Source of the DNA: Candidatus Agathobaculum pullicola
GTDB taxonomy: Bacteria; Bacillota; Clostridia; Oscillospirales; Butyricicoccaceae
NCBI GenBank assembly: GCA_019115085.1
Contig: DXEF01000059.1
Location: forward strand, 1 to 64,000
Reading direction: 5' to 3'
Length of the DNA stretch: 64,000 bases
Positions 7,683 through 24,183 of this stretch are shown in pieces (positions within the stretch are counted from its first letter, which is position 1; each line of letters begins with the position of its first letter). The notes under the pieces were generated by a model. It searched no databases. It was given only the letters and a program-made list of their open reading frames with translations, and had not been told where the DNA came from. The translations under genes and the position numbers were made by a program.

Positions 7683-7796
7683 ATGACTAACACGAAGAAT
7701 GGTTCTAATCAGGGTATGGTTCCGGAAGCACGCGCCGCAATGGATCGCTTTAAGATGGAGGCGGCAGCCGAGCTTGCTGTCTCTCTTACATCTTAA
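7683..7796 (+). pseudogene. 5' part of an alpha/beta-type SASP gene, interrupted by a mobile element
   Basis: It starts with ATG at 7683 after AAAGGAG. Codons 1-30 encode an N-terminus with the pattern VPEARAAMDRFKMEAAAE, matching the first half of alpha/beta-type small acid-soluble spore proteins (PGARxALDxMKxEIAxE). After codon 30 (GAG, 7770-7772) the sequence leaves the family and runs seven codons into element DNA before TAA. The missing half is at 24058-24183. The intact protein would coat DNA in the forespore and be degraded by the GPR protease at germination. As it stands, only a 37-residue peptide can be made. I could not assign a sigma-G promoter with confidence in 7500-7665. Confidence 0.9.
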
Positions 7797-7797
7797 T
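7745..7797 (+). other. attL, left junction of the integrated element
   Basis: Left of the GA at 7770-7771 is SASP coding sequence; right of it is element DNA. The right arm (7772-7796) ends in CATCTTAA (7789-7796), which is the inverted partner of TTAAGATG at 24030-24037 at the other end of the element. Arms are equidistant from the GA when the ends are joined. The base trio GAG is shared by both junctions. Confidence 0.85.
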
Positions 7798-7830
7798 TCC
7801 AAATCGCACTACATACCGGCTCACACCCCC

Positions 7831-7870
7831 AAACGACCGCCTGCTATCCTGATAGGAGGCGGCCGTTTTC
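7831..7870 (+). terminator. terminator just inside the left end of the element
   Basis: A nested hairpin: AAACG pairs with CGTTT, CCGCCT with AGGCGG, and CTATC with GATAG, followed by TTTT. It lies 35 nt after the truncated SASP reading frame and would stop sporulation transcripts from entering the element. Confidence 0.75.
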
Positions 7871-8041
7871 TATTGCACGCTTTTTTATTGGGTAAGACGT
7901 TTTCTCTTCCGCACACACATGGACGGTGTAGCTTTCACCCTTCTCTAAAAAACGCCCTTTCGGCGGATGGGAGCACGATACAATAGAGTCCCGCCCAACA
8001 TTTTCCATCCGCGCTGTTCCCATATTGTTGCAGAATTTGTT

Positions 8042-8070
8042 TTGCGAAATAGGGAGAAATTTGGTATAAT
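8042..8070 (+). promoter_or_regulatory. promoter of the regulator-kinase-lipoprotein operon
   Basis: TTGCGA (8042-8047), a 17-bp spacer and TATAAT (8065-8070), ending about 55 nt before the response regulator start. The 328 bp at 7797-8124 hold only the terminator at 7831-7870 and this promoter; I see no gene there. Confidence 0.65.
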
Positions 8071-8124
8071 ACTGCACATCAGAATTCCAATTACCGCCTT
8101 GGAAAGGAAAGGACTGGAGCTGTT

Positions 8125-9399
8125 ATGGCTAAATCATTATACTCTGTGATTGTCGCAGACGATGAGGATGAATTGAGGGAAGCAGTGTGTACTATGATTC
8201 CCTGGGAGGACTATGGTTTCCGTCTGGTAGGAAGTGCCAGCAACGGTTTGGACGCCCTGCAAATGGTGGAGGAGTGTGAGCCTGATCTGCTGCTCACCGA
8301 TATCCGGATGCCCTTCATATCGGGCATTGAGCTTGCCCGACAGGTACGCGAAATCCGTCCCGCAACCAACATCGCCTTTCTCAGCGGCTACGACGATTTT
8401 GAATACGCCAAACAGGCGATTCAATATAATATCATCAGCTATATGCTCAAGCCCCTGACCATGGAGGGATTGAGCAAGGAGTTGCAAAATATCCGCCAGA
8501 AGATTGACACCCAGTTTGCCATGTTCCGGCAGGCCTCCCCCAGTCCCGGCGGGCTGGACTTGCAGACCGCGATGCTGATGCCTCTGGTGCTGGACGATTA
8601 CGCCGAGCCGGATGGCGAGCAACGGGCAAAGGCCTATGCACGGCAGTGCGGCCTGCTGCATGACATAGAGGACTGTCCTTATTACATTGTGATGGTATCC
8701 ACCTTGCTGGAAGCGGACGAAGGCAACTGCACGCCCCCCTCCTTTGTTGCGTCCGTCAACCGGCTGTCGACGAAATATCTACGCGGCGCGCATTTCTTTG
8801 CTTCCGGCAAAGTGATTTCCGTGCTGCTGGGCAATCCGTCCGACTTCGACAAATACCTCCACATTCTGGCGGATGAAATCCCCCAAATGGCAGACCGCGT
8901 GCTGGGGAAACGCTGCCGCATCGGCATTAGCCGTGCGACGCGGAATTTAACCGCTCTGCACGATGCCTATCGGGAGGCGATGGAAGCCCTCCGCCAGGGG
9001 GACCGCATGGAGAGCGGCGCGCAGTTTATCAGCGACCTGTCCCCTACTGTCAAAGGCGGGGAGCTGCTATGCAAGCGAGCCATGGAGGCTCTCAACCAGC
9101 ACTATATGGATGCTGACCTCTCTTTGGTTTCGCTCAGCGGAATGTTGACCGTCAGCCCCAACCACCTTTCCTCCTGTATCAAAAAATATACCGGCGAGAC
9201 TTTCATCAATATTCTCATCCGCAAGCGGATGGAAGCCGCCCGCGAGCTGTTGATATCCTCCCCGCTCAAAATTCAGGAGATCGCTCAACGGTGCGGCTAT
9301 ACCGATCAGCACTATTTCAGCTACTGCTTTAAGAAATACTGTGGTGAATCTCCCAGTACCATGCGCCGCAGGCTGGATCGGGAAAAGGCAGGTGAATGA
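8125..9399 (+). CDS. AraC-type two-component response regulator
   Basis: A 424-residue regulator of the YesN type. The N-terminal receiver has the acidic pair D12-D13, phospho-acceptor D59 in LLLTDIRMP and K109 in YMLKPL. A central linker of about 180 residues follows. The C-terminal AraC HTH pair is at about 325-420 (SLSGMLTVSPNHLSSCIKKY, IQEIAQRCGYTDQHYFSYCF). It overlaps the sensor kinase gene by ATGA, so the two are translationally coupled. By position it should activate the mgl and gal genes of the same element. Its binding site is unknown; repeats near the mglB promoter are candidates. Confidence 0.92.
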   Translation: MAKSLYSVIVADDEDELREAVCTMIPWEDYGFRLVGSASNGLDALQMVEECEPDLLLTDIRMPFISGIELARQVREIRPATNIAFLSGYDDFEYAKQAIQYNIISYMLKPLTMEGLSKELQNIRQKIDTQFAMFRQASPSPGGLDLQTAMLMPLVLDDYAEPDGEQRAKAYARQCGLLHDIEDCPYYIVMVSTLLEADEGNCTPPSFVASVNRLSTKYLRGAHFFASGKVISVLLGNPSDFDKYLHILADEIPQMADRVLGKRCRIGISRATRNLTALHDAYREAMEALRQGDRMESGAQFISDLSPTVKGGELLCKRAMEALNQHYMDADLSLVSLSGMLTVSPNHLSSCIKKYTGETFINILIRKRMEAARELLISSPLKIQEIAQRCGYTDQHYFSYCFKKYCGESPSTMRRRLDREKAGE

Positions 9400-11120
9400 T
9401 TTTGAAAGACCGTGTCTCCCGCACAGGGCTGCGGATTACCACCATTCAGGTCTCCATTGTGCTGGGCGTGGTGGCAGTCATTCTGTGCTGCAGTATTCTG
9501 CTCTTTCTCAACCGTTACCGCAACGCCATGGTGCAGAGCGCTCTTACCAGCAGTGACCAAGCAGTCTCTCAAGTCTCCAACACGGTCGGCAACTATCTGC
9601 AAAGCATGGAGCAGGCCATGTCTCTGGTGGAATGGTCCCTGCTGGAAAGTGCCGACAACCGAAACCAGCTCTTGGAAGCCTTTCTGACCTTCCGCCCGGA
9701 TGTGGTGGCGGTGACAAGCTACTCTCCTTCGGGTAAAATGCTGGACTGCTGGTGCCTTGACCGGGAGCCACGTGAGGTCATTTATCAGAACCTTTCCTTC
9801 AATCTGGATAGGGCCCGTGCCTCGGGCGACGCTTATATGACCGCTCCCCACGTAGAGAGTATCTTTGAGGGATATTACCCTTGGGTGGTGACCATGACCG
9901 TGCCGCTGGAATCCGGCAATCAGACGGCCTGGGTCTCGCTCGACCTGAGTTTTTCCAGCATCTCAACCTACATCAATAATGTCAGCATTGGCCAGCGCGG
10001 CTATTGCTTTCTCATGGATAAACAGGGCGACATCGTCTATCATCCCCAGCAGCAGCTGCTGTACGCAGGTCTGAAATCCGAGGACACCTCCTCTCTGGCT
10101 TCATTGGCAGATGGCGCCTATGTCAATGACACAGTGATATATTCCGTTACCAGCGTCGCGGGCAGCGACTGGCGCATCGTCGGCGTCAGCTATGTCGATG
10201 AAGTGGTCAATCGCAACTTCCGGGAAATGATTCGTCTTTCCCTCATAGTGGGAGCGGTTCTGCTCGCGGTAGCGGTGCTGACAAGTTTTCTTCTCTCCCG
10301 ACTGCTGTCCCGTCCGCTGCGCGGTTTGGCCGATGCCATGGAACGCTTTGAAACCGATGCCGACCACTTCACCTACCTGCCTGTGGGCGGCACCCGAGAG
10401 GTTCAGGAGTTGTCCGGCTCCTTCGAGCATATGGTACTGCGCATCCAGCGTCTCATGACCACGGTGCGAGAGGAGGAAATCAACCTTCGCAAAACCGAGC
10501 TGAAAGCCCTTCAAGCGCAAATCAATCCGCACTTTCTATATAACACGCTGGATTCCATCGCCTGGATGTGTGAGCAGGGCCGCACTGATGATGCGGTAAA
10601 AATGATTCACGCGCTGGCCAGACTGTTCCGCATCAGCATCAGCAAGGGACACGAACTCATCCCTATCGCCAAGGAAATCGAGCATGCGGAAAGCTATCTG
10701 CAAATCCAGAAATACCGTTATAAAAATCAGTTTACCTATGCGTTTGATGTCGACCCTGCGTGTCTGAACTATTACTGCAACAAGATAACCCTGCAGCCCA
10801 TTATCGAGAACGCTATCAACCACGGCCTTGATCTGCTGGTGGATGAGGGCCGTATTACCGTACAGGTGCGGCAGGACGGAGAGGACATTGTATTCGACGT
10901 TCGCGACAACGGCGTAGGTATGAGCGATGAACTGATTCAGTCCATTTTGCAGCACGGACCGGATGACCGCACCGGTATCGGTATCCGAAATGTCAACGAC
11001 CGACTGCAAATCTATTTTGGAAAGCAGTACGGCCTGCACATCAGCAGCGAGCCGGATGTGGGGACCTGCGTGGAAATTCGCATGCCTAAGATACAGGAGG
11101 GGGACTATGAGACGAAATAG
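9396..11120 (+). CDS. YesM-family sensor histidine kinase
   Basis: A 574-residue membrane kinase. It has a first transmembrane helix at about 17-38, an extracellular Cache-like sensor domain (about 40-280), a second helix (282-301), a HAMP linker, and the His_kinase core with H379 in QINPHFLYNTLDSIAW. A HATPase domain follows with DNGVGMS and TGIGIRNV. It starts within the stop of the response regulator (ATGA) and overlaps the following lipoprotein gene by 14 nt, so the three form one tightly coupled unit. It probably receives sugar information from the lipoprotein outside the membrane and phosphorylates the AraC-type regulator at D59. Confidence 0.92.
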   Translation: MILKDRVSRTGLRITTIQVSIVLGVVAVILCCSILLFLNRYRNAMVQSALTSSDQAVSQVSNTVGNYLQSMEQAMSLVEWSLLESADNRNQLLEAFLTFRPDVVAVTSYSPSGKMLDCWCLDREPREVIYQNLSFNLDRARASGDAYMTAPHVESIFEGYYPWVVTMTVPLESGNQTAWVSLDLSFSSISTYINNVSIGQRGYCFLMDKQGDIVYHPQQQLLYAGLKSEDTSSLASLADGAYVNDTVIYSVTSVAGSDWRIVGVSYVDEVVNRNFREMIRLSLIVGAVLLAVAVLTSFLLSRLLSRPLRGLADAMERFETDADHFTYLPVGGTREVQELSGSFEHMVLRIQRLMTTVREEEINLRKTELKALQAQINPHFLYNTLDSIAWMCEQGRTDDAVKMIHALARLFRISISKGHELIPIAKEIEHAESYLQIQKYRYKNQFTYAFDVDPACLNYYCNKITLQPIIENAINHGLDLLVDEGRITVQVRQDGEDIVFDVRDNGVGMSDELIQSILQHGPDDRTGIGIRNVNDRLQIYFGKQYGLHISSEPDVGTCVEIRMPKIQEGDYETK

Positions 11121-12078
11121 ATGGGGCGCCGTATGGGCGGCTGTGCTTTGCGTACTCTTGTGCAGCTGTTCCACCAGCACCGGCTACTCCCGACAGCACA
11201 CGGTCACTCTGGTGGCCAAATCCACAAAGACCGAGTTCTGGCTGTCAGTCTTTGCCGGGGCGGAGGCTGCCGCCACAGAATACAATCTCAAGCTCACCAT
11301 CATCGGCCCAAATACCGAAGAGGACTACGAGGCACAGAATCAAATGGTGACCGACGCGGTAAACGAAGGGGCGGAAGCCATTGTATTTTCCGCCATCGAC
11401 TATGAGAACAACGCCGCTGCGATTGATGCCGCCGCCCAAAACGGCGCTAAAATCGTGGCCATCGACAGCAACGTAGACTCCGAGGCGGTGAGCACCTACA
11501 TCGGCACCGATAACTACGCCGCCGGACAAATGGCCGCGCAGGCGGCCCTCGAACGAGTAAAAACACCGTTGAAAGTCGGCATTGTCAATTATGATATCAG
11601 CAGCGCCAACGGTCAGGAGCGGGAGCAGGGGGCGGTAGATGCTTTTACTGCCAGCAACCGGGCCGAGGTTGTCAGCGTCATCAACACATTGGCGGAGGCT
11701 CGCCACGCTAAAATGGATACTATCTCTCTGCTGACAACCCACCCGGAAATCAATGTGCTGCTGGCCTTTAACGAGCCTACCAGCGTAGGTGCGGCACAGG
11801 CGGTAGAGCAAATGGGGCTGTCCGAAACGGTCTTTCTGTTGGGCTTTGACTCCAATGTTGACACTGTAGACGGCCTGCAGGAAGGCTCGGTCGACGCCCT
11901 TATCGTACAAAACCCGTATGCCATGGGCTATCTGGGCGTGGAAAGCGCTTATAAACTGCTCATCGGACAGTCCAGCGGAATGGAGCGGATCGTAGACACT
12001 TCCACCCAGATCGTGGACCGGAATAATCTTTTTGATGTGGACAGCCAAAAGGCATTATTCGCATTCGACTCTCGTTGA
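11107..12078 (+). CDS. sensory sugar-binding lipoprotein (periplasmic-binding-protein family 4)
   Basis: A 323-residue exported protein. The ATG at 11107 has a strong CAGGAGGGG before it; a longer in-frame version starts inside the kinase gene without a ribosome site. The short signal peptide ends in LLCSC with a lipidated cysteine. The mature part is a type I periplasmic-binding fold like the ribose/galactose-binding proteins (HTVTLVAKSTKTEFW, GFDSNVDTVDGL). It is fused by overlap to the two-component genes and separated from mglBAC by its own promoter region. A sensory role with the kinase, like XylFII with LytS in clostridia, is therefore more likely than transport, which MglB covers. Ligand galactose is an inference. 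Confidence 0.85.
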   Translation: MRRNRWGAVWAAVLCVLLCSCSTSTGYSRQHTVTLVAKSTKTEFWLSVFAGAEAAATEYNLKLTIIGPNTEEDYEAQNQMVTDAVNEGAEAIVFSAIDYENNAAAIDAAAQNGAKIVAIDSNVDSEAVSTYIGTDNYAAGQMAAQAALERVKTPLKVGIVNYDISSANGQEREQGAVDAFTASNRAEVVSVINTLAEARHAKMDTISLLTTHPEINVLLAFNEPTSVGAAQAVEQMGLSETVFLLGFDSNVDTVDGLQEGSVDALIVQNPYAMGYLGVESAYKLLIGQSSGMERIVDTSTQIVDRNNLFDVDSQKALFAFDSR

Positions 12079-12143: not shown

Positions 12144-12264
12144 ACCCCTTTTGCGGTGATTTTTCACCTTGTTTTTCCGTATTTTTTCCTATACAATAAG
12201 AACAAGCAGGAAGGATCTTCTAAAGAATATCCCTCCAAACCAAAAGGAGAAAAGGAGAATCATT

Positions 12265-13548
12265 ATGAAGAAAAAGGTACTTGCGCTGACTCTGGCTGCT
12301 GCGATGATGGCCAGCATGGCGGCCTGCTCTTCGGGCGGTAACAATTCGGACACTGCGCAGAACGACGGTGGCGCGCAGGCGGCGGAGGTCGCTAACAAGG
12401 ATAAGCCCTTAGTGTGGTTCAACCGTCAGCCCTCCAACAGCTCTACCGGCGAGTTGGACATGAACGCTCTGAGCTTCAACGACAACACTTACTACGTAGG
12501 CTTTGACGCTAACCAGGGCGCTGAGCTTCAGGGCACCATGATTCTGGACTACGTAAAGGCCAACATTGATACCATCGACCGCAACGGCGACGGCATCATC
12601 GGTTATGTGCTGGCCATCGGAGATATCGGTCACAACGACTCCATCGCCCGTACCCGCGGCGTCCGTGCGGCTCTCGGCACTGCTGTTGAAACAAACGGCG
12701 CTATCAACAGTGACCCTGTAGGCAGCAACGCTGACGGCTCGGCTACCGCTGTTAAGGACGGCTCTCTGGAAGTCAACGGCAAGACCTACATCGTCCGTGA
12801 GCTGGCTTCTCAGGAAATGAAGAACCCCGCCGGCGCAACTTGGGATGCTGCTACCGCTGGTAACGCGATTGGCACCTGGGCTTCCTCTTTTGGCGACCAG
12901 ATCGATGTCATCGCTTCTAACAACGACGGCATGGGCATGTCCATGTTCAACGCTTGGTCCAAGTCCAACAAGGTTCCGACCTTCGGCTATGACGCTAACG
13001 CTGACGCGGTTGCTGCTATCGCAGAAGGCTACGGCGGCACCATCAGCCAGCACGCTGACGTTCAGGCTTACCTGACCCTCCGCGTACTGCGTAACGCACT
13101 CGACGGCGTGGATATCGACACCGGTATCGGCACCGCGGATGACGCCGGCAACGTACTGAGCGACGACGTTTACTACTACGATGAGGCCGCTCGTTCCTAC
13201 TACGCTCTGAACGTAGCAGTCACTGCCGACAACTACACCGAGTTCACCGACTCCACCAAGGTTTACGCACCGGTCAGCAATCAGCTGGATGCTTCCGCTC
13301 ACCCGGAAAAGAGCGTATGGCTGAACATCTACAACGCTGCTGATAACTTCCTGAGCGCTACTTACCAGCCGCTGCTGCAGAACTACGACGACCTGCTCAA
13401 CCTGAAGGTAGAGTACATCGGCGGCGATGGCCAGACCGAGGCCAACATTACCAACCGTCTGAGCAACCCGAGCGCGTATGACGCCTTCGCCATCAACATG
13501 GTTAAGACCGACAACGCAGCTTCCTACACTGCTCTGCTGAATCAGTAA
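12265..13548 (+). CDS. mglB: galactose/glucose ABC transporter substrate-binding lipoprotein
   Basis: A 427-residue lipoprotein. The ATG at 12265 follows AAAAGGAG; the lipobox is ASMAAC, with a low-complexity N/G/A linker after it. The domain belongs to the MglB group. The loop DRNGDGIIG (about residue 99) matches the calcium-binding loop of E. coli galactose-binding protein, and ASNNDGM and FGYDANADA match the hinge and ligand region. It is longer than E. coli MglB (about 330), mainly in surface segments. Codon use is strongly biased (AAC, GAC, GGC, CTG), pointing to high expression. It is the first gene of mglBAC and should capture galactose at the cell surface. Confidence 0.9.
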   Translation: MKKKVLALTLAAAMMASMAACSSGGNNSDTAQNDGGAQAAEVANKDKPLVWFNRQPSNSSTGELDMNALSFNDNTYYVGFDANQGAELQGTMILDYVKANIDTIDRNGDGIIGYVLAIGDIGHNDSIARTRGVRAALGTAVETNGAINSDPVGSNADGSATAVKDGSLEVNGKTYIVRELASQEMKNPAGATWDAATAGNAIGTWASSFGDQIDVIASNNDGMGMSMFNAWSKSNKVPTFGYDANADAVAAIAEGYGGTISQHADVQAYLTLRVLRNALDGVDIDTGIGTADDAGNVLSDDVYYYDEAARSYYALNVAVTADNYTEFTDSTKVYAPVSNQLDASAHPEKSVWLNIYNAADNFLSATYQPLLQNYDDLLNLKVEYIGGDGQTEANITNRLSNPSAYDAFAINMVKTDNAASYTALLNQ

Positions 13549-13745: not shown

Positions 13746-15254
13746 ATGGCAGATGCAAAAAACGATATTGTCCTGTCAATCCGCGGCATGAGCAAATCCT
13801 TTGGCCGTAACCGAGTGCTCGATCACATCAATCTGGAGGTCAAGCGCGGCACGGTCATGGGACTGATGGGTGAAAACGGTGCCGGTAAGTCCACGATGAT
13901 GAAGTGCCTATTCGGCACCTATCAGAAGGACGAAGGAAAAATCTTTTTGAATGGTAAAGAGATTAACTTCTCCGGCCCTAAGGATGCTCTGGAGAACGGA
14001 ATCGCCATGGTGCACCAGGAACTTAATCAGTGTCTGGAACGCAACGTGATCGACAATCTGTTCTTAGGCAGATACCCCACCAATTCCGTGGGCATGGTAG
14101 ACGAAGGCAGGATGAAAAAGAAGGCTTCGGAACTGTTCCGCAAGCTGGGTATGACGGTCAACTTGACCCAACCCATGCGGAATATGTCCGTTTCCCAACG
14201 ACAGATGTGCGAAATCGCCAAAGCAATTTCCTATAACTCTCAGGTAATTGTTCTGGATGAACCCACCTCCTCCCTCACTGTCCAGGAGGTAGATAAACTC
14301 TTTGAAATGATGCGGATGCTGAAAGAGCAAGGTATTGCTCTTATCTATATCTCGCATAAAATGGATGAAATCTTTGAGATTTGTGACGAGATTTCCGTAC
14401 TTCGCGACGGCAATCTGGTCATGACCAAGCCCTCTCAGGAGACAAACATGAACGAGCTGATCACCGCCATGGTAGGTCGCTCTCTGGAGAGCCGCTTCCC
14501 ACCGGTAAACAACACACCGGGAGACACGATTTTGTCAGTGCAGCATCTCTCCACCAAATACGCCCCCTATCTTCAGGATGTATCCTTTGATGTAAAGGAA
14601 GGCGAGATTTTCGGTTTGTACGGTCTGGTGGGCGCCGGTCGTACCGAACTGCTGGAAACAATTTTCGGCGTGCGGACGCGTGCAGCAGGCCGCGTCTACT
14701 TTAAGAATCGCCTGATGAACTTCAACAGCGCCAGAGAGGCCATCGAACACGGCTTCGCCATGATCACAGAGGAACGCAAGGCCAACGGTCTGTTTCTCAA
14801 ATGCGACCTCACCTTCAACACGACCATTGCGAATCTGAATCAGTACAAGAGCGGCTTTGCCTTGTCTGACGCCCAGATGATAAAGGCCACCAACAAGGAA
14901 ATCAAAATCATGCACACCAAGTGCATGGGCCCCGACGATATGATTTCCAGCTTATCAGGCGGCAACCAGCAGAAGGTCATCTTCGGCAAGTGGCTGGAAC
15001 GGGAACCTCAAATCTTTATGATGGACGAACCCACGCGTGGCATCGACGTAGGCGCAAAATACGAGATTTACGAGCTGATCATCAATATGGCCAAGCGCGG
15101 CAAGACCATTATCGTCGTCTCTTCTGAAATGCCCGAGATCCTCGGCATCACCAACCGTATTGGTGTTATGTCCAACGGACATCTCTCCGGCATCGTCAAC
15201 ACCAAAGAGACCGATCAGGAAGAGCTTTTGCGGCTTAGCGCAAAATACCTGTAG
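13746..15254 (+). CDS. mglA: galactose ABC transporter ATP-binding protein (two nucleotide-binding domains)
   Basis: A 502-residue duplicated ATPase. Domain 1 has Walker A GENGAGKST (about 40-48), the signature SVSQRQMCEIAKA and Walker B VIVLDEP. Domain 2 has the degenerate Walker A GLVGAGRTE, the signature LSGGNQQK and Walker B IFMMDEPTRGID. This asymmetric pattern is typical of the MglA/RbsA/XylG sugar ATPases, and the length is normal. It stands between mglB and mglC (15-nt gap) and should energise galactose import at the membrane. Confidence 0.95.
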   Translation: MADAKNDIVLSIRGMSKSFGRNRVLDHINLEVKRGTVMGLMGENGAGKSTMMKCLFGTYQKDEGKIFLNGKEINFSGPKDALENGIAMVHQELNQCLERNVIDNLFLGRYPTNSVGMVDEGRMKKKASELFRKLGMTVNLTQPMRNMSVSQRQMCEIAKAISYNSQVIVLDEPTSSLTVQEVDKLFEMMRMLKEQGIALIYISHKMDEIFEICDEISVLRDGNLVMTKPSQETNMNELITAMVGRSLESRFPPVNNTPGDTILSVQHLSTKYAPYLQDVSFDVKEGEIFGLYGLVGAGRTELLETIFGVRTRAAGRVYFKNRLMNFNSAREAIEHGFAMITEERKANGLFLKCDLTFNTTIANLNQYKSGFALSDAQMIKATNKEIKIMHTKCMGPDDMISSLSGGNQQKVIFGKWLEREPQIFMMDEPTRGIDVGAKYEIYELIINMAKRGKTIIVVSSEMPEILGITNRIGVMSNGHLSGIVNTKETDQEELLRLSAKYL

Positions 15255-15269: not shown

Positions 15270-16925
15270 ATGGCATCAACAAGTACAAAAATTCTTACGG
15301 CTGAGCAGGAAGCGCAGCTTCGCCAGCCTATCGACGAATACGTCGGCAAAATTCAGGATCAGATCAATGACCTGCGCGAGGATGGCACCGACAAGGTGAT
15401 CGAAATTCAAAGCGCTATCGACAACCTAAAGCGGGATAAAATCTACACCGCTCAGGAAAAAGAAACCCGTATTCGGGAACTTCAGTCGGAGTTAGAGAAG
15501 GCCAAGGCGGTCGAGAATCGAAATAAAGATGCGATTGCCAAGCTGATTAGCGACGCAGAAAACTACTTAAAGGTCCATTTCAATACGGACTATTATCAGG
15601 CGGTCATCGCAAGCTGCAAGGACGAAAAGGTGCTTGCCGAGGAGAGATACCGCACAACGGTCGCCCGACTCAATCAGGAGCATCAGAGTACGATGTCCAA
15701 GCTCTCTGATGCTCATGAAATCAAGGATGAAAAGTACGTACACAAAAACCGGCTCTTTGACGCAAAAATGCAGCGGGCAAAGAACCTGCAGCAGGTAAAA
15801 GACCGGCAGCACGCCGCTTTTGAACACAAGTTCCACCTTATCGACCTGCTGCGCATGTCTAGATTCTCGTTTGGCGAGTCCATGTCGCAGCGGTGGGAGA
15901 ACTACAAGTACACGTTCAACCGTCGTGACTTCCTGCTGAAAAATGGTCTGTACATCGCCATCATCATCATCTTCATCGCCCTGTGTATCATCACCCCGCT
16001 GGTGAAAAACGTACAGCTGCTGACAGTGAACAACGTGCTGAACATTCTCCAGCAGGCTTCGCCCAGAATGTTCTTGGCGCTCGGCGTAGCAGGCCTGATT
16101 CTGTTGGCCGGCACCGACCTGTCCATCGGCCGTATGGTTGGTATGGGCATGACGGCGGCTACCATCGTTATGCACCAGGGCATCAACACCGGCTCTGTGT
16201 TCGGTCATATCTTTGACTTTACCAGCCTGTCGGCTATCGCCCGTGTTCTTCTGGCACTGATTGTGTGCATCGTGCTTTGCACCGTGTTCACCACAATTGC
16301 CGGCTTCTTTACGGCGAAATTCAAAATGCATCCTTTCATTTCCACCATGGCTAACATGTTGGTTATCTTCGGTCTGGTCACCTATTCCACCAAGGGCGTA
16401 TCCTTCGGTGCAATCGACCCGACCATCCCCAGCATGATCATCCCCCGGATCAACAACTTCCCCACCATCATTCTGTGGGCGGTTGCCGCGGTAGTCATCG
16501 TGTGGTTCATCTGGAACAAGACCACTTTCGGCAAGAACCTTTACGCTGTCGGCGGCAACCCTGAATCCGCCGCTGTATCCGGTATCTCCGTATTCTGGGT
16601 CACTGTAGGCGCGTTCGTTATGGCCGGTATTCTGTATGGCTTCGGCGCTTGGCTGGAATGTATCCGCATGGTAGGTTCCGGCTCTGCGGCTTACGGCCAA
16701 GGCTGGGAAATGGACGCCATCGCGGCTTGCGTAGTAGGCGGTATCTCGTTCACCGGCGGTATCGGCAAGATCTCCGGTGTTGTCGTGGGCGTATTCATCT
16801 TCACCGCCCTGACCTACTCGCTTACCACGCTGGGTATTGACACCAACCTGCAATTCGTATTCTCCGGCATCATCATTCTGGTAGCCGTTATGCTGGACTG
16901 CCTGAAGTATGTGCAGAAGAAATAA
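15270..16925 (+). CDS. mglC: galactose ABC transporter permease with long N-terminal coiled-coil extension
   Basis: A 551-residue protein. Residues from about 225 on are a BPD_transp_2-type permease with multiple membrane helices (LYIAIIIIFIALCIITPL, ALGVAGLILLAGTDLSIGRM, AVGGNPESAAVSGI). The first 225 or so residues are charged, rich in K, E, Q and R with heptad-like spacing, and have no membrane segment: a cytoplasmic coiled coil not present in E. coli MglC (336 residues). The start at 15270 has AGGAG before it and no later start has a better site, so the extension seems real. The extension might oligomerise the transporter or dock a partner; its role is unknown. It is the last gene of mglBAC. 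Confidence 0.9.
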   Translation: MASTSTKILTAEQEAQLRQPIDEYVGKIQDQINDLREDGTDKVIEIQSAIDNLKRDKIYTAQEKETRIRELQSELEKAKAVENRNKDAIAKLISDAENYLKVHFNTDYYQAVIASCKDEKVLAEERYRTTVARLNQEHQSTMSKLSDAHEIKDEKYVHKNRLFDAKMQRAKNLQQVKDRQHAAFEHKFHLIDLLRMSRFSFGESMSQRWENYKYTFNRRDFLLKNGLYIAIIIIFIALCIITPLVKNVQLLTVNNVLNILQQASPRMFLALGVAGLILLAGTDLSIGRMVGMGMTAATIVMHQGINTGSVFGHIFDFTSLSAIARVLLALIVCIVLCTVFTTIAGFFTAKFKMHPFISTMANMLVIFGLVTYSTKGVSFGAIDPTIPSMIIPRINNFPTIILWAVAAVVIVWFIWNKTTFGKNLYAVGGNPESAAVSGISVFWVTVGAFVMAGILYGFGAWLECIRMVGSGSAAYGQGWEMDAIAACVVGGISFTGGIGKISGVVVGVFIFTALTYSLTTLGIDTNLQFVFSGIIILVAVMLDCLKYVQKK

Positions 16926-17079: not shown

Positions 17080-18366
17080 ATGCAAAAATTAAGCGATGTA
17101 CGCCGCGCACTGGACGCCGGAGATCTGAACGCTCCTCTGTCTGAGTTGCTCTATGATGATCTGACTGCCGCTCGGCAGCGCATAGCGAAATTACTCGATG
17201 CCTTTCAACAATGCTTTAACGCCCAAGATGACACCCCTGTCGCTTTGTGCTCCGCCCCTGGCCGCACGGAGATTGGCGGCAACCATACCGACCATCAGCA
17301 CGGCCGCGTTCTGGCCGGCGCGGTCGATTTGGACTTTTTGGCCTGTGCCAGCCCGAACGGCACCAATACCATCCGTTTCCAGTCCGAGGGTTGGCCGATG
17401 GTAGAAGTGAATCTGGATACGCTGGACCCCAAGGAGGAGGAAAAGGAAAGCACCGCTGCTCTGGTTCGCGGTATGGCGGCTCAGGCGGCACAGAAAGGCT
17501 ACACTGTAGCCGGCTTTGATGTGTATGCTACATCCAGCGTACTGCCCGGCTCCGGCCTGTCCTCTTCTGCGGCATGCGAAGTGCTTCTTGGTGTCATTGA
17601 GAACCATCTGTTCTGCCGGGATGAACTCGACCCGGTAACAATTGCACAAATGGGTCAGAAAGCGGAAAATGTGTATTTCGGCAAGCCTTGTGGCCTGATG
17701 GACCAGACCGCATCCTCAGTTGGAGGCGCTGTCACCATCGACTTTAACGATCCCTCTGCTCCGATTGTCCGTGCACTGAAGGTAGATCTGGACAGCCTTG
17801 GCTATGCTCTGTGCATCATCGACTGCGGTGCCGACCATGCCGACCTGACGGACGAATACGCCGCGGTTCCCAGAGAGATGAAAACAGTGGCCGCTTTCTT
17901 CGGCAAAGAGGTGCTGCGTGAGGTGGATGAAGCCGATGTACTGGGCAATCTGCCCGCACTTCGCAAAGCAGTAGGCGATCGCGCCGTACTTCGTGCACTG
18001 CATTTCCTGGCCGATAACCAGCGAGTAGCGGAGCAGGCCGACGCGCTGGCCAACGGCGATATGGATACCTTTCTCGCACTGGTCAACGAGTCCGGCCATT
18101 CCTCCTGGGAACAGCTGCAGGACATTACCCCTGCCGGCGCCGTACAGGAACAATCCATGGCGGTTGCGCTGACGGTTGCGCAGCGCGCGCTGAAGGGACG
18201 CGGTGCCTGCCGCGTGCATGGCGGCGGCTTCGCCGGAACCATTCAGGCTTTTGTTCCGCTGGATCTGCTGGCAGCATTCCGCAGTGAGATAGAGGGCGCA
18301 CTGGGTGCCGGATGCTGCCATGTGCTGCGGATTCGCCCTGTGGGCGGCACAGTCCTCTGGTCCTGA
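17080..18366 (+). CDS. galK: galactokinase
   Basis: A 428-residue GHMP kinase that phosphorylates galactose with ATP, the first committed Leloir step. The galactokinase signature CSAPGRTEIGGNHTDHQHG is at 57-75. The ATP loop GSGLSSSAACE is at about 155-165, and the C-terminal GHMP motif GGGFAGTIQAF is present. Length and motif order are normal, with a slightly long N-terminal helical stretch before the signature. It is preceded by AAGGAG. It starts the galKETM block, with 41 nt to galE. Confidence 0.95.
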   Translation: MQKLSDVRRALDAGDLNAPLSELLYDDLTAARQRIAKLLDAFQQCFNAQDDTPVALCSAPGRTEIGGNHTDHQHGRVLAGAVDLDFLACASPNGTNTIRFQSEGWPMVEVNLDTLDPKEEEKESTAALVRGMAAQAAQKGYTVAGFDVYATSSVLPGSGLSSSAACEVLLGVIENHLFCRDELDPVTIAQMGQKAENVYFGKPCGLMDQTASSVGGAVTIDFNDPSAPIVRALKVDLDSLGYALCIIDCGADHADLTDEYAAVPREMKTVAAFFGKEVLREVDEADVLGNLPALRKAVGDRAVLRALHFLADNQRVAEQADALANGDMDTFLALVNESGHSSWEQLQDITPAGAVQEQSMAVALTVAQRALKGRGACRVHGGGFAGTIQAFVPLDLLAAFRSEIEGALGAGCCHVLRIRPVGGTVLWS

Positions 18367-18407: not shown

Positions 18408-19400
18408 ATGGCAATTTTAGTGCTGGGCGGAGCCGGCTATATCGGCTCCCATACCGTATATGAGTTGATTGACGCGGGCCGCGAGGTCGTGGTAGCCGAC
18501 AATCTGCAAACCGGTTTCCGTGCCGCAGTTCATCCGAAAGCAAAGTTCTATGAACTGGATATTCGAGACCAAAAAGCGCTGGACACCCTGTTTGAGACCG
18601 AGCAAATTGACGGCGTTATCCATTTCGCTGCCTCCTCTCAGGTCGGGGAATCCATGTCCAATCCGCTGAAGTATTATGACAATAACCTCCACGGCACTAT
18701 GGTGCTTCTCCAGTCCATGGTGGCGCACGGCATCGATAAAATCGTTTTCTCCTCTACCGCCGCAACCTACGGTGAGCCGGAGCGCGTGCCGATTCTGGAG
18801 GACGACAACACCTGTCCCACCAACTGCTATGGTCAGACCAAACTGGATATGGAGCATATGATGGGCTGGGTATCCCGGGCGCATGGCCTGAAATATGTGG
18901 CGCTGCGGTATTTCAATGCCTGCGGCGCGCATGCTTCCGGTCAGATTGGTGAGGCGCACAATCCGGAAACTCATCTAATTCCCCTCATCCTGCAAGTGCC
19001 GCTGGGCCAGCGCGAGCAGATCAGTGTGTTTGGCGAAGACTATCCCACCAAAGACGGTACCTGCGTTCGTGACTACATTCACGTCACCGATTTGGCGCAA
19101 GCGCACATTCTGGCGCTGGATTACCTGATGAACGGCGGCGAAAATAACGTATTCAATTTGGGTAATGGTGTGGGCTTCACCGTCAAGGAGGTCATCGACG
19201 TGGCCCGTGAAGTCACCGGCCATCCGATTCCCGCTAAAATGGCCCCCCGCCGTGCCGGCGATCCGGCACAGCTTATTGCCTCCTCGGAGAAAGCGGTTCA
19301 GGTGCTGGGTTGGAAGCCCGAATACAATGACCTGTCCACCATCGTGGCCTCCGCCTGGACCTGGCATAAGAGCCATCCCCACGGCTATACGGAGGGTTGA
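18408..19400 (+). CDS. galE: UDP-glucose 4-epimerase
   Basis: A 330-residue short-chain dehydrogenase/reductase that interconverts UDP-galactose and UDP-glucose. The NAD motif GGAGYIGSH is at 6-14. The catalytic pair sits in YGQTK, with the upstream serine in SSTAATYGEP. The substrate motifs FNACGAH and RDYIHVTDLA are present. The length is typical. The galT ribosome site GGAGGG lies inside its last codons, so the two are coupled. Confidence 0.96.
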   Translation: MAILVLGGAGYIGSHTVYELIDAGREVVVADNLQTGFRAAVHPKAKFYELDIRDQKALDTLFETEQIDGVIHFAASSQVGESMSNPLKYYDNNLHGTMVLLQSMVAHGIDKIVFSSTAATYGEPERVPILEDDNTCPTNCYGQTKLDMEHMMGWVSRAHGLKYVALRYFNACGAHASGQIGEAHNPETHLIPLILQVPLGQREQISVFGEDYPTKDGTCVRDYIHVTDLAQAHILALDYLMNGGENNVFNLGNGVGFTVKEVIDVAREVTGHPIPAKMAPRRAGDPAQLIASSEKAVQVLGWKPEYNDLSTIVASAWTWHKSHPHGYTEG

Positions 19401-19402
19401 TC

Positions 19403-20899
19403 ATGGAACGTGACACAGCCATTGCTATGCTGGTGACCTATGCGCTGCGCAAAGGTCTTATCCAGCCCTGTGAGGAGATCTGGGCGACAAACGCTTTACT
19501 GGACGTGCTCAAGCTGGACAGCTATACTCCTCCGGAGACGGAACTGCCGGAAGATATTGATTTGCCCTCTGTTTTGGACGCCCTCATGGATGACGCCCAT
19601 GCACGAGGCGTCTTGGAGGAAAACTCCATTGTCTACCGTGATCTGTTTGATACCGCGCTGATGGGCGCGCTCACGCCCCGCCCCGCACAGGTCATCGACA
19701 CCTTCCAAACCCTGCGGCAAGAAAACCCGGAAAAGGCCACCGATTGGTATTATCGCTTTAGTCAGGATACCAACTATATCCGCCGCGACCGCATCGCAAA
19801 AGATGTACAGTGGAAGGCTACCACCGACTACGGCGAGTTGGACATCACCATCAACCTATCCAAGCCGGAAAAGGATCCCAAGGCTATCGCCGCTGCCCGT
19901 AATATGCCGGCTTCTTCCTATCCCCGCTGCCTGCTGTGCGCGGAAAACGAAGGATACGCCGGTCGGGTCAATCATCCCGCCAGGCAGAACCATCGCATCG
20001 TTCCCATCACCATCAACGACTCGCCGTGGTTCCTGCAGTACTCTCCCTATGTGTACTATAACGAGCACTGTATCTGCTTTAACGCGGTCCACACCCCCAT
20101 GAAAATCGACCGGGCGTGCTTTGCCAAGCTGCTGGACTTTGTGGGACAGTTCCCGCATTACTTCGTCGGTTCCAATGCCGACCTGCCTATTGTTGGCGGC
20201 TCTATTCTGGCGCATGATCATTTCCAGGGCGGACGATATACGTTCGCTATGGAGAAAGCGCCGATAGAGACTCCCTTCTCCTTCCCCGGTTATGAGGATG
20301 TGCAGGCAGGTATCGTTAAATGGCCCATGTCGGTCATTCGGATCACCGCCGCAGACCCCCAGCGCCTGATTGAGCTGGCCGACCGTATCCTGACGCTGTG
20401 GCGCGGCTATACTGACGAGACTGCGGTCATCTATGCGGAGACAGATGGCGAGCCGCACAACACCATCACCCCTATTGCTCGCCGTCGAGGCAGCGACTAC
20501 GAGTTGGATCTAGTGTTGCGCAACAATCTCACCACCCCGGAACATCCCTTGGGACTGTATCATCCGCACGCAGAACTCCACCACATCAAGAAGGAGAACA
20601 TTGGCCTCATCGAAGTAATGGGGCTGGCTGTTCTCCCTGCCCGTCTTAAGACTGAGCTGGCCGCTGTGGCGCAGAAGCTGGTCTCCGGTGATGACTTAGA
20701 GGCCGACCCCCTCACCGCTTCCCATGCAAGCTGGGCTATGGGCTTCCGCGATAAGTATGAGCTGACCGCAGACAACGCGTTGGACGTGGTATATAAAGAG
20801 ACTGGTTTGGTCTTTGCCAAGGTACTGGAGCATGCCGGTGTGTATGCCCGTACGCCTGAAGGTAAGGAAGCTTTTCTCCGTTTCTTAAGGCAGGTGTAA
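19403..20899 (+). CDS. galT: UDP-glucose--hexose-1-phosphate uridylyltransferase (class II, Firmicutes type)
   Basis: A 498-residue enzyme that transfers UMP between UDP-glucose and galactose-1-phosphate. The ATG at 19403 is chosen over a TTG two codons upstream because GGAGGG ends 6 nt before it. The length and the AHDHFQGG motif place it in the Firmicutes class II family, distinct from the shorter E. coli HPH-type GalT. Other family segments are FNAVHTPM and YHPHAELHHIKKENIG. It follows galE with a 2-nt gap and is followed by galM 3 nt later. Confidence 0.95.
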   Translation: MERDTAIAMLVTYALRKGLIQPCEEIWATNALLDVLKLDSYTPPETELPEDIDLPSVLDALMDDAHARGVLEENSIVYRDLFDTALMGALTPRPAQVIDTFQTLRQENPEKATDWYYRFSQDTNYIRRDRIAKDVQWKATTDYGELDITINLSKPEKDPKAIAAARNMPASSYPRCLLCAENEGYAGRVNHPARQNHRIVPITINDSPWFLQYSPYVYYNEHCICFNAVHTPMKIDRACFAKLLDFVGQFPHYFVGSNADLPIVGGSILAHDHFQGGRYTFAMEKAPIETPFSFPGYEDVQAGIVKWPMSVIRITAADPQRLIELADRILTLWRGYTDETAVIYAETDGEPHNTITPIARRRGSDYELDLVLRNNLTTPEHPLGLYHPHAELHHIKKENIGLIEVMGLAVLPARLKTELAAVAQKLVSGDDLEADPLTASHASWAMGFRDKYELTADNALDVVYKETGLVFAKVLEHAGVYARTPEGKEAFLRFLRQV

Positions 20900-20902: not shown

Positions 20903-21940
20903 ATGACAGAATTCATGCGTCAACCCTTTGGCGTAACTGCTGATGGACAAGCGGTAGATCAATGGACCATGCGCGCAGGGCAGTATATGGCTCAGGTACT
21001 TACCTACGGCGGCGTTCTGCGCTCCTTTACCGTCCCTGCCCCCGACGGCAGTCGGGATATTGTGCTGGGATACGACAGTCTGGCAGAATATGAGGCGCAA
21101 GACAAATATTTGGGAGCACTGGTCGGACGTGTAGCGAACCGCATCGGCGGCGCGGCCTTCGACCTGAACGGCGTCCACTATCCCTTGGCTGTCAACAACG
21201 GCCCTAACTGTCTCCATGGCGGCTTGCGCGGCTTTGACCGGGCAGTGTGGGAAGCGAAGCTCGACAATGATACTTTGGTTCTCACTCACGTCAGCCCGGC
21301 CGGTGAAGAAGGCTTCCCGGGCACACTGGAAGTAACGGTAACCTACTCTCTCACCGTTGACGGTGTACTCTCGCTGGATTATCAGGCAAAAAGTGATGCC
21401 GATACTCTGTGCAATCTGACCAACCACAGCTACTTCAACCTGCTGGGACACGCTTATGGCTCTCTGGAGGGCCAGCAGGTTGAAATCCGGGCGGATGCCA
21501 TTACCGAAACCGATGCCGACAGCACGCCCACCGGCGTTCTGCTGCCGGTAGAAGGCACCCCTTTCGATTTACGTTCTCCACGGGACTTTTTGCAAGGGTT
21601 GGCGATGGAACATCCTCAGCTGACGCTGGGCAACGGATACGACCACAATTTTGTACTGCGTACCGCACCGGTCTCCCCTCTGGAACCGGTTGCACGAGTT
21701 ACCGGCGGCGGCCTATGTCTGGAATGCTGTACCACTCAGCCCGGTCTGCAGCTCTACACGGCAAACTATCTGGATGGAAGCCCCGGTAAGGAAGGCGCCA
21801 GCTATGGCCCGCGGTCGGCATTCTGTCTGGAAACGCAGGCTTGGCCAGACGCCATTCACCATACGAATTTCCCCTCCGTTGTACTTCCGGCAGGAGAAAC
21901 CTATCACCATACCACCACCTACCGTGTAACGATGACCTGA
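20903..21940 (+). CDS. galM: aldose 1-epimerase (galactose mutarotase)
   Basis: A 345-residue beta-sandwich enzyme that converts beta-galactose to the alpha form used by galactokinase. Family motifs are GRVANRIGGAAFDLNG (about 74-89), the catalytic-histidine region LTNHSYFNL, and the C-terminal CLETQAWPDA. Length is standard. It is the last gene of the gal operon, with a ribosome site (AAGGCAGG) at the end of galT, and is followed by a strong terminator. Confidence 0.94.
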   Translation: MTEFMRQPFGVTADGQAVDQWTMRAGQYMAQVLTYGGVLRSFTVPAPDGSRDIVLGYDSLAEYEAQDKYLGALVGRVANRIGGAAFDLNGVHYPLAVNNGPNCLHGGLRGFDRAVWEAKLDNDTLVLTHVSPAGEEGFPGTLEVTVTYSLTVDGVLSLDYQAKSDADTLCNLTNHSYFNLLGHAYGSLEGQQVEIRADAITETDADSTPTGVLLPVEGTPFDLRSPRDFLQGLAMEHPQLTLGNGYDHNFVLRTAPVSPLEPVARVTGGGLCLECCTTQPGLQLYTANYLDGSPGKEGASYGPRSAFCLETQAWPDAIHHTNFPSVVLPAGETYHHTTTYRVTMT

Positions 21941-21972: not shown

Positions 21973-22016
21973 ACTGGGACACTGCAACACACTTTGCAGT
22001 GTCCCGGTTTTTTTTG
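21973..22016 (+). terminator. gal operon terminator
   Basis: ACTGGGACACTGCAA pairs with TTGCAGTGTCCCGGT (one G-U pair), followed by eight Ts. It separates the cargo from the recombination genes. Confidence 0.9.
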
Positions 22017-22095
22017 TGCCGCTTTAGAACTCCTGCTGAAAAGCGAATAAAAACACACTTTATGGCACAAATTACCTCAAAAAGGAGGTACTTCT

Positions 22096-22296
22096 ATGAA
22101 CACAATGACACATGCAGCCCATGAGACGCTCTCACCAACAGCGCAGGGAACGCAGACCTGCATCGGTGCTGGCACATTCATCGTCAGACGACAGTATGTT
22201 GGAAACGCTCCCGCCCTCGACCTGCTCCGACAGCGCGTACAGCGGGCTGCGCACACAACATCATCCATTGACGAGCGAGTCGGCCCTGCGGTATAA
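22096..22296 (+). CDS. TnpW-like small protein ahead of the recombinase
   Basis: A 66-residue protein with an excellent ribosome site (AAAGGAGG) before ATG at 22096. The core TCIGAGTFIVRRQYVG followed by ALDLLRQRVQRA resembles the TnpW family (a beta hairpin of the form IG-x-TTYxV followed by a short helix), which often precedes large serine recombinases in Clostridia. The function of TnpW is not established. It lies 36 nt upstream of the recombinase and is probably co-transcribed with it. The family call is tentative. Confidence 0.6.
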   Translation: MNTMTHAAHETLSPTAQGTQTCIGAGTFIVRRQYVGNAPALDLLRQRVQRAAHTTSSIDERVGPAV

Positions 22297-22332
22297 TCAA
22301 CTGGTGAGCCGGTTCTGAAAGGAGCATATCAC

Positions 22333-24006
22333 ATGAGAACCGGTAATCTGAAACTTGTTTTTGCCTATCTTCGCCTCTCCAATGAGGAAGCGCGGAGCGG
22401 CGAATCCTCCAGTATTGCAAACCAACGGCAGATGATTCAGGACTATTGCCATCGCCACAGTATCACACTTGTGCAAGAGTTTGTAGATGACGGCTACTCC
22501 GGCGGCAATTTTGACCGTCCTGCGTTTCAGGCTATGCTGCGTCAGCTGCATGATGGCAAGGCCAATATGGTCATCACCAAGGACTTATCCCGCCTCGGGC
22601 GCGACATGCGCGAATCCAGCTACTATGCCGAGCAGTTTTTTCCGGAGCATGGCATCCGCTATCTGACCATCGCAGACAACTTCGACACCGCCCACGAAAA
22701 CGTCATGGCACCGTTCCAATTTGCCATGAACGAAGTCTATCTGCGGGACGGCTCACGCAAGGTTAAGGAGGTCTTGCGAAGCAAACGGCAAAACGGGCAG
22801 TACTGTGCTTGCCCGCCCTACGGCTACCGCAAAGACCCTGCGGATAAAAACCGTCTTGCCCCCGACGAACAGACTGCCCCCGTCGTGCGACGCATTTTCG
22901 AGCGAGCGGCTGCCGGAGATTCCTCGCGTAAAATCGCGCTCGACCTGAATACGGATGGCATCATCCCACCGCTCAAATACCGTGTGCTGTTCCGCGATGA
23001 TTTCAGCCCGGAAGGCGCCGCGCGCGCCTCTGACCTGTGGAACTACACTACGGTCAAGCGTATTCTGAAAAATCCGGTCTATCTTGGGCACACCATGCTT
23101 GGCAAAAGCCGCAAGGTCAGCGTCAAATCAAAAAAGAAGGTCGCAGTGCCACAAAGCGAGTGGTCGGTCACACATGACACACATCTTCCCCTGATTGATT
23201 CATTGCTCTACGAGAAGGCGCAACGCAATTTAGGCCGTGGACGGCGCAGTACTTTGTCCCATGATGCCATCCGTAAAAGCATTTTTTCCGGCATTGTTCG
23301 CTGTGCGCGATGCGGTCATTCCCTGTGTTCCTGCGGTACGGTGTACAAGGGGGAGCGGGAGAAATATTGGTATCTGTCCTGCACCCATCAGCGCGGCGAT
23401 ATCGCCAAGCGCTGCGACGGCGTGCGCATCAAGTATGCCGACCTCATAGAAGTCGTGCGGCAGGATTTGAATACCTTGCTCGCGCTGACCGATGCGCAAG
23501 CCGAGGCTCTCGCCCGTATGGCAGTGGAAAAAGAGCAGGGAGCCAGCGGACACGCAGCACGCAAAGCACGCTTACAGCAAGCACAGACACGCCTGTTAAC
23601 GATAGACAAGATCATTGCCAAGCTGTATACGGACAACGCCGAAGGTCGGCTGGATGACGACCGACTGGCCCGCATGGTCGAAGCGCTTGAACAGGAATCC
23701 GCCTCCCATCAGGCCGTCCTCACAGAGCTATCACAAACACTTCCGAATCGTGAGGACACCGAAGCGCGATTTCACCGTTTTTTTATGCTGGCCAAGCAGT
23801 GCAGTCACATCGACGTACTCGACCGCGAAACACTGCTCACCTTTATCGATCGCATCGAAGTCGGACCAAAGCAATTTGAAGGCGGATTGCGCAAAGCGAC
23901 CCATCGCAATACCCCCTACCGTCAGGATATCCGCATCTTTTATCGTTTTATCGGTGAAATTCATGCCGAAAACGAGCCATTATTGGAACAATCCTGCAAC
24001 CTCTGA
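22333..24006 (+). CDS. large serine recombinase
   Basis: A 557-residue site-specific recombinase, probably catalysing integration and excision of this element. The N-terminal resolvase domain has catalytic S16 in AYLRLSNEE, Q-R at about 34, the strand GYSGGNFDRPAF, and the arginine-containing SRLGRDMRE. The recombinase domain follows (QYCACPPYGYRKD onward), with a zinc-ribbon CARCGHSLCSCG and a later CTHQRGDIAKRCDG. A coiled coil of about 80 residues precedes the C-terminal helical domain, as in phage integrases and TnpX-type proteins. All catalytic residues are present. The gene ends 49 nt before the GA of attR, the usual position beside an attachment site. AAAGGAG precedes the ATG. Confidence 0.95.
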   Translation: MRTGNLKLVFAYLRLSNEEARSGESSSIANQRQMIQDYCHRHSITLVQEFVDDGYSGGNFDRPAFQAMLRQLHDGKANMVITKDLSRLGRDMRESSYYAEQFFPEHGIRYLTIADNFDTAHENVMAPFQFAMNEVYLRDGSRKVKEVLRSKRQNGQYCACPPYGYRKDPADKNRLAPDEQTAPVVRRIFERAAAGDSSRKIALDLNTDGIIPPLKYRVLFRDDFSPEGAARASDLWNYTTVKRILKNPVYLGHTMLGKSRKVSVKSKKKVAVPQSEWSVTHDTHLPLIDSLLYEKAQRNLGRGRRSTLSHDAIRKSIFSGIVRCARCGHSLCSCGTVYKGEREKYWYLSCTHQRGDIAKRCDGVRIKYADLIEVVRQDLNTLLALTDAQAEALARMAVEKEQGASGHAARKARLQQAQTRLLTIDKIIAKLYTDNAEGRLDDDRLARMVEALEQESASHQAVLTELSQTLPNREDTEARFHRFFMLAKQCSHIDVLDRETLLTFIDRIEVGPKQFEGGLRKATHRNTPYRQDIRIFYRFIGEIHAENEPLLEQSCNL

Positions 24007-24028
24007 CACGTTTCGCTTATACAAACTC

Positions 24029-24082
24029 TTTAAGATGACACAGATACACCAAGGGAGGTTGGCGTCAACCTGAAGCAGGGCT
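24029..24082 (+). other. attR, right junction of the integrated element
   Basis: Left of the GA (24055-24056) is element DNA with TTAAGATG at 24030-24037; right of it is SASP coding sequence (GGTTGGCGTC). Read outward from GA, the left arm here and the right arm of attL match in inverted orientation at 19 of 25 positions. The rebuilt attB (SASP arms at 7745-7769 and 24057 on) also shows weak dyad symmetry, 7 of the first 10 positions. Confidence 0.85.
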
Positions 24083-24183
24083 ATAACGGCGATCTGACTT
24101 CCCGTCAGGCCGGCTCGATCGGTGGTCAGATGGTCAAGAAGATGATCGAATCCTACGAGCAGAACCTGGCAAACCAGGGCTGA
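24057..24183 (+). pseudogene. 3' part of the interrupted SASP gene
   Basis: In frame with the left fragment after a shared GAG, this part encodes VGVNLKQGYNGDLTSRQAGS and continues IGGQMVKKMIESYEQNL to TGA at 24181-24183. This is the conserved C-terminal half of alpha/beta-type SASPs (GVNLxxGYxGxLTSxxAGxxGGxMVKKMIE). It has no start codon or ribosome site of its own. Joined to 7683-7771 it gives a 71-residue protein of normal length with no stop or frameshift, so the damage is purely insertional. Confidence 0.92.

Follow-up and report, generated by a model that had tools for sequence, protein, structure and literature searches.

According to PMC6957869, almost all intervening elements of sporulation genes lie in genes of the mother cell, which is explained by the death of that cell and the persistence of the element in the spore. 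In skinCd of Clostridioides difficile, a large serine recombinase (LSR) element inside sigK, the LSR is described as constitutive, with its direction set by a mother-cell factor (PMC5025042). The gin element of Bacillus cereus ATCC10987 is presented as a non-phage serine-recombinase element with three recombinases in gerE, a 225-bp gene for a mother-cell regulator (PMC5595907). SPβ in spsM (PMC4191935) and φ3T in kamA (PMC6957869) are reported as active phages integrated in mother-cell genes that are reconstituted during sporulation, and yin is reported as a prophage-like element in the sporulation-associated gene yabG of Clostridium botulinum (PMC10747680). The locus considered here lies in a stretch of 64,000 nucleotides from Candidatus Agathobaculum pullicola (the window; contig DXEF01000059.1, positions 1 to 64,000), in which the gene for an α/β-type small acid-soluble spore protein (SASP) is interrupted at one codon by a 16,285-bp island that carries an LSR. 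A literature search, which left out most subscription journals, found no description of an element-split SASP gene.

The island resembles skinCd in being an LSR element inside a sporulation gene, and its precise removal would restore the SASP frame, as expected of an intervening element in such a gene. The mother-cell target that goes with the skin type is absent, the interrupted gene being that of an α/β SASP. SASP acts as a forespore product, so excision would be a germ-line event, unlike that of skin. We consider it likely, with a probability of roughly 0.6, that the island excises in the forespore, with a small protein being made from a predicted σG-type promoter and the SASP gene being rejoined. 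The proposed logic of a constitutive LSR and a cell-specific factor is that of skinCd, whose factor and gene, as described, belong to the terminal mother cell, whereas here we have a forespore gene and a predicted forespore-type promoter. Compared with the account of gin, the island has one LSR and interrupts the gene of a structural DNA-binding protein, and SASP islands with variable cargo occur in dozens of taxa. The yin element differs in its gene, the target not being a SASP.

The 5′ half of the SASP gene (7683..7772, plus strand) begins with ATG at 7683 and ends with codon 30, a GAG at 7770–7772; it matches PF00269 with 33.6 bits as a 37-codon open reading frame (ORF). The same GAG recurs at 24055–24057 and is followed by the 3′ half (24058..24183, plus strand), which comprises 41 codons and a stop ending at 24183. 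Both pieces score above the Pfam SASP cut-off, and 16,285 bp is the spacing of the two shared GAs. An earlier note on this DNA had described a SASP gene split with an in-frame join at the shared GAG by a skin-like LSR element whose excision would restore the gene, and the coordinates, the two Pfam matches, and the sequence of the locus bear this out. The halves belong to one gene, as that note had assumed: the host genome (66 contigs, 82% complete) has no second SASP that we could find. The finding is real, is no artefact, and reaches further than first noted.

The junctions have the appearance of attachment (att) sites. The predicted attL (7770..7796, plus strand) consists of the shared GA and an element arm ending ACATCTTAA, which terminates the truncated left ORF 7 codons beyond the join; it was set against the corresponding left ends in eight further genomes of Agathobaculum. 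The predicted attR (24029..24057, plus strand), defined from the sequence and by congener comparison, consists of an element arm (TTTAAGATG...ACACCAAGG) and the shared GAG. Nine left junctions, including that of the window, reduce the common overlap to GA, with GAC in G014 and G011 and GAG elsewhere (G, C, and L numbers are our labels for genomes, contigs, and loci). In most of the carriers compared, the element arms contain an inverted pair: the right arm has TTTAAGATGG or a close variant of it, and the left arm has CATCTTAA. A further motif, CTACATACCGGCTCACA, lies tens of bp inside the left end at 7806–7824 of the window and also near the left ends in L062, L068, L069, and L075; it is possibly a binding site of the recombinase or of a factor. 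The 557-residue LSR (22333..24006, plus strand; domain scan) has Resolvase, Recombinase, and zinc ribbon domains, and its Ser16, which we take to be the catalytic serine, is invariant in nine of nine aligned proteins.

Filled and empty sites are both present among congeners. The N-terminal and middle parts of SASP are whole in 14 of the 24 congeners searched (counting G006, whose C terminus is changed), and six have separated halves; the remainder have the right half only (one), the left half only (two), or no SASP (one). In the window, the split gene is flanked by an EF-G-like GTPase gene with a YacP domain (4868..7435, minus strand) and by ptsI (24377..26134, minus strand), both identified by family scan, and an intact 71-residue SASP lies between the same two genes in G013, G018, G021, and G022. 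Within about 1.5 kb on each side, eight of the other unsplit sites have one of these two neighbors, and G009 and G020 have neither. In all eight Agathobaculum genomes in which that end is assembled (our own and seven others), the LSR directly precedes the right half, and the congener LSRs are 82–87% identical to that of the window. Congener elements contained on one contig measure 4 to 23 kb (G003, G014, G012, G004, and G005), and an element in G039, a genome from another family, measures 36 kb. A different arrangement was observed on G023:C1 and G011:C34 (L075–L077), where the left half and an attL-like arm are followed by about 19–30 kb of ordinary-looking chromosomal genes with no right half; this could be a large rearrangement.

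Related LSRs are found in SASP genes well beyond this genus. Nine LSRs used as queries against a collection of 84,980 species genomes gave 58 loci, seven of them in Agathobaculum genomes already in the congener set; 57 have 58–87% identity in the best segment, and one distant locus (30%) was set aside. Of the 57 related loci, 51 join SASP sequence, in Agathobaculum and in other Oscillospiraceae-type Clostridia. The right half of SASP lies just downstream of the LSR in 42 loci, and in nine the LSR-proximal arm is joined to the left half in reverse. Judged from their junctions, these nine insertions lie close to the usual position but have the opposite orientation. The loci so oriented are L107, L108, L109, L111, L113, L118, L119, L124, and L130, and also L292. 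The six other related loci join other sequence (L086 and L115), are LSR remnants ahead of a SASP with an intact N terminus (L132 and L134), or end with the contig (L129 and L133). Among 394 genomes drawn evenly from the order, 12, including our own, have the LSR at E ≤ 1e-130. The SASP halves are 76 kb apart in G444, a relative in which ParA-like and very large ORFs were noted by eye only. At L217 (G434:C59:39673, plus, and 46553, minus), the halves face each other about 7 kb apart, which suggests an inversion or two insertions.

Neither an excised circle nor a phage was identified in these searches. L115 was considered as a circular excised form and rejected: its junction has no inverted arm and its genome has a complete SASP, so we read it as another target site, in a locus whose recombinase is cut by the contig start and whose far end is outside the sequence read. 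A scan of IMG/VR with the LSR gave ten loci and no close relative, the best identity being 36%, a difference from the reported active phages SPβ and φ3T. The best tblastn match among phage records (51.7%) is an unverified, unannotated 13.6-kb fecal "Bacteriophage sp." record, in which, over the 9.1 kb read, the LSR end is joined to the left half of SASP in reverse. This record is therefore another SASP element and no evidence for a phage, and a phage origin of the island was rejected on these two grounds. No phage structural or replication genes and no conjugation genes were detected among the 12 island proteins scanned with Pfam, 10 of which (all except GalM and the product of the small ORF) were also scanned with NCBIfam.

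For most hosts, the interrupted gene appears to be the only SASP gene of its kind. No second complete SASP could be found in the nine other members of Agathobaculum whose SASP is split or present as one half only, and the isolate A. massiliense has SASP halves only. The census of other hosts covered 50 genomes, with L129 left out and six Agathobaculum loci covered by the congener search instead; four (G409, G438, G453, and G455) were set aside because their LSR lies outside SASP or is a remnant. Of the remaining 46, three (G412, G421, and G443) have a further complete SASP, and in 43 none was found; one of these 43 (G456) has an extra N-terminal SASP piece cut by a contig end. Many hosts are metagenome-assembled genomes (MAGs), so these absences are provisional. 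The alternative offered in the earlier note, that SASP is present in several copies and that one of them tolerates an insertion, is not supported by these censuses and was rejected on their basis. The note had also suggested looking for relatives with an intact SASP and ptsI downstream and for the same element in other SASP genes, and the sites and loci described above provide examples of both.

Gpr, the SASP protease, is present in 38 of 40 relatives and in our own genome, and in all eight Agathobaculum genomes with the LSR. SpoIVA is present in 13 of the 17 genomes tested, including G003, G004, G012, and G015. In C. difficile, SASPs are reported to protect spores from UV and to be required for mature spores (PMC11392383).

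The two halves are under purifying selection. The pairwise ratio of nonsynonymous to synonymous polymorphism (pN/pS) of the left half is 0.028 in split genes (30 codons, nine sequences) versus 0.050 in the 14 unsplit-site genes; for the right half, it is 0.121 (42 codons, eight sequences) versus 0.160, the latter value being raised by the inclusion of G006 with its replaced C terminus. Among the four carriers of the galactose island described below, the halves differ by 12 synonymous and two amino-acid changes (binomial p = 2e-6, with about 76% amino-acid changes expected under neutrality), and with G012 and G003 added by 35 and four (p = 1e-17). Over 15 codons of 38 distinct right halves from the wider set, pN/pS is 0.28, a weaker signal that is still below one. 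The split also looks old, as the LSR and gal genes have diverged about as much as the flanking host genes. Between G004 and G005, synonymous divergence (dS) is 0.37 for the LSR, 0.15–0.43 for gal-operon genes, and 0.28 and 0.47 for the flanks; between G000 and G014, it is 1.08 for the LSR, 0.51–1.13 for the transporter and gal genes, and 0.52 and 0.76 for the flanks.

A conserved small ORF ahead of the LSR provides a candidate for the cell-specific factor. In the window, it encodes 66 residues (22096..22296, plus strand) and is conserved across loci. Of the 51 loci scanned (five near a contig end and L132, L134, and L136 were left out), 41 have a small ORF with a G..TY.V.R-like motif ahead of the LSR, and in 29 of these 41 it ends 38–40 bp before the LSR. 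The protein database has 515 relatives, and the three named ones among the 120 listed are all hypothetical proteins. A small ORF beside the LSR is also a feature of Tn4451-type LSR modules (TnpX/TnpW). The SASP islands differ from these modules in their fixed target and in lacking a significant match to the family; the small ORF was rejected as a TnpW member, the best match, for one of five members scanned, having E = 0.15.

The small ORF has a predicted promoter of forespore type (GAATA-N18-CAAATTA, 22045..22074, plus strand, found by matrix score). A similar promoter is predicted for the SASP gene itself (TCATA-N17-CAAAATA, 7605..7633, plus strand), from congener SASP upstream sequences that were used for the matrix. 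With this matrix, built from the 40 of 68 SASP upstream regions that fit a pattern of our own (−35 NNAT[AG], −10 CANNNTA), small-ORF upstreams score above 407 control ORFs of the same loci (Mann–Whitney p = 4e-16, a value that is too small because the sequences are related by ancestry), and 19 of the 41 lie beyond the 95th percentile of the controls. The motifs of σF and σG are described as very similar (PMC3789822). The LSR has a σA-like promoter in the window, identified by eye (TTGACG-N18-TATAAT, 22268..22297, plus strand), and TATAAT is found ahead of the LSR in most loci. We propose that the small ORF encodes a forespore directionality factor. In growing cells, the σA-like promoter would supply the LSR, which would keep the island integrated; in the forespore, the small protein would switch the LSR to excision, and the SASP gene would be rejoined there. 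The circle would be trapped in the spore and, after germination, either be re-inserted by the LSR or be lost.

Several points weigh against forespore excision, the self-chosen pattern and the shared ancestry behind the promoter comparison among them. In addition, 22 of the 41 small-ORF upstreams fall under the control 95th percentile, and the spacer is 17 bp in 39 of 40 SASP promoters and 18 bp in most small ORFs. No small ORF was found in 10 of the 51 scanned loci, four of which are in the opposite orientation (L107–L109 and L118), and the TnpW match is poor. SpoIVA was not found in our own genome, G005, G014 (90% complete), or G016, which all belong to the ten Agathobaculum genomes whose SASP is split or reduced to one half, and G023 (94% complete) has the left half only and no close LSR. 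The σG-like gene of Agathobaculum is in two separated pieces, corresponding to about residues 2–96 and 92–254 of TIGR02850. LSR synonymous divergence is above that of the host in most pairs, so some exchange is possible. Finally, the analysis showed no excision product, circle, or transcript, and germ-line excision should lose the element unless it is re-inserted.

This last point bears on the fate of the excised island. The retention of the galactose island in four species speaks for re-insertion, for its persistence in part of the spores, or for rare sporulation. A one-way loss switch, the other reading in the earlier note, may still apply, but loss at every sporulation is hard to square with a galactose island at this site in four species at host-like divergence. 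It is tentatively possible that there is a reversible germ-line cycle, in which forespore excision rebuilds the sole SASP, the circle survives dormancy, and the LSR re-inserts it after germination. If so, the galactose operon would be physically off the chromosome once per spore generation.

An alternative that we think unlikely, while taking it seriously, is that the island is an ordinary selfish integrative element for which SASP is a conserved, dispensable landing site, some spore resistance being lost and no developmental excision taking place. The many hosts without another complete SASP would then simply manage without, which is consistent with the missing SpoIVA in some MAGs, with the fact that no excision was observed, and with reports that gut Firmicutes can lose sporulation (PMC8340488). 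A dispensable site is harder to reconcile with the strong purifying selection on the halves in an old-looking association, with Gpr in all eight LSR-bearing Agathobaculum genomes, with SpoIVA in G003, G004, G012, and G015, and with the predicted forespore-type promoter on the island. Either there is programmed germ-line excision, perhaps with re-insertion, or many spore formers of the gut have lost the use of a sole α/β SASP whose sequence is still under selection. Each outcome would come as a surprise, and isolates suited to testing them exist, as A. massiliense Marseille-P4005 and Flintibacter muris DSM 110149 carry the split gene. An island family resident in the sole SASP gene of the forespore runs counter to the rule that intervening elements occupy mother-cell genes, and a naturally paired LSR, its att sites, and a candidate directionality factor are now available.

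It is rather improbable that insertion took place recently and more than once, with halves whose conservation predates it and with excised or intact strains making the spores. Empty sites are indeed interspersed among carriers, and the LSR exceeds the host in dS in most pairs. A flanking-gene tree places the four galactose carriers and G002, which has an intact SASP and its operon elsewhere, in one clade (support 0.83), with a support of only 0.59 for the grouping of G000 with G002. G004 and G005, however, share island and cargo at dS close to that of the host, and the same operon is at the same site in all four galactose carriers. That the two halves act as separate peptides with no need for joining is very improbable: the left ORF does possess a promoter and a start of its own and stops 7 codons past the junction, but the right half in the window has no in-frame ATG, GTG, or TTG from the preceding stop to the internal Met of GGQMV. 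An assembly artefact or a join of unrelated contigs, which the incomplete 66-contig assembly might suggest, can be practically dismissed because the same junctions recur in several MAGs that were assembled separately and in an isolate with a 3.2-Mb contig, A. massiliense Marseille-P4005.

The remainder of the island encodes a two-component system, two sugar-binding proteins, an MglA/MglC-type transporter, and GalK/GalE/GalT/GalM, all on the plus strand. By family and domain scans, an AraC-type response regulator (8125..9399) is followed by a sensor histidine kinase with dCache, HAMP, and His_kinase domains (9396..11120), a Peripla_BP_4 sugar-binding protein (10963..12078 as the listed ORF, the true start probably being later), and an MglB-like galactose/glucose-binding protein under the family cut-off (12169..13548). 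The names of the transporter and galactokinase are best matches under cut-off: an MglA-like sugar ABC transporter ATPase (13746..15254; 668 bits, cut-off 828), an MglC-like permease (15270..16925; 264 bits, cut-off 386), and a galactokinase-like protein (17080..18366; under the NCBIfam cut-offs). The UDP-glucose 4-epimerase GalE (18408..19400) and galactose-1-phosphate uridylyltransferase GalT (19397..20899) are above theirs, and aldose 1-epimerase (GalM, 20903..21940) was identified by Pfam scan. Family scans thus confirm the galactose sensing, uptake, and Leloir module and the LSR beside the right junction that the earlier note had reported, but its emphasis on galactose was too narrow, as this is one cargo of several. 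Among the elements read, the operon is inside the element only in our own genome, G004, G005, and G014, and the cargo of G012 includes, by eye, a type I restriction-like ORF set. Because cargo varies between islands, galactose is incidental, and it was rejected as the defining function. The galactose operon was also observed at other chromosomal places in G002 (L168/L278, G002:C10), G023 (L169, C48), and G015 (L170, C21), and about 14 kb of this operon aligns in G002 and G023. Its presence outside SASP indicates that the operon was transferred as a whole, either to the SASP island or away from it.

Two further observations concern other recombinases near sporulation genes. Both pieces of the σG-like gene are present in 12 of the 13 congeners searched, our own genome included, and G015 has the first piece only. 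The split point is AVPM|IIGE, and the pieces lie, for example, at G012:C2:296939-297223 and 408910-409398 (both minus) and at G010:C1:2504338 (minus) and 1747354 (plus); the loci are L261–L270. In G012, G000, and G003, the C-terminal piece is immediately preceded by a 458-residue serine recombinase; in G010 and G001, where the locus edge is near, the recombinase reading is shorter. The gene is in one piece in G417, G427, and G039, and all matches, including these, are under the TIGR02850 family cut-off. The arrangement could represent a sigma factor made of two parts or a further sporulation gene that undergoes rearrangement. Near the 3′ end of SASP, after GGQMV, a second family of serine recombinases, distinct from the first, was observed in L271–L274 (G415, G414, G422, and G455) and also in G006. 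At these sites, the last residues of SASP continue in frame from the C terminus of the recombinase, and the SASP piece upstream has a conserved added tail of about 30 residues. In G415, G414, and G422, the SASP gene is in three pieces with two islands.

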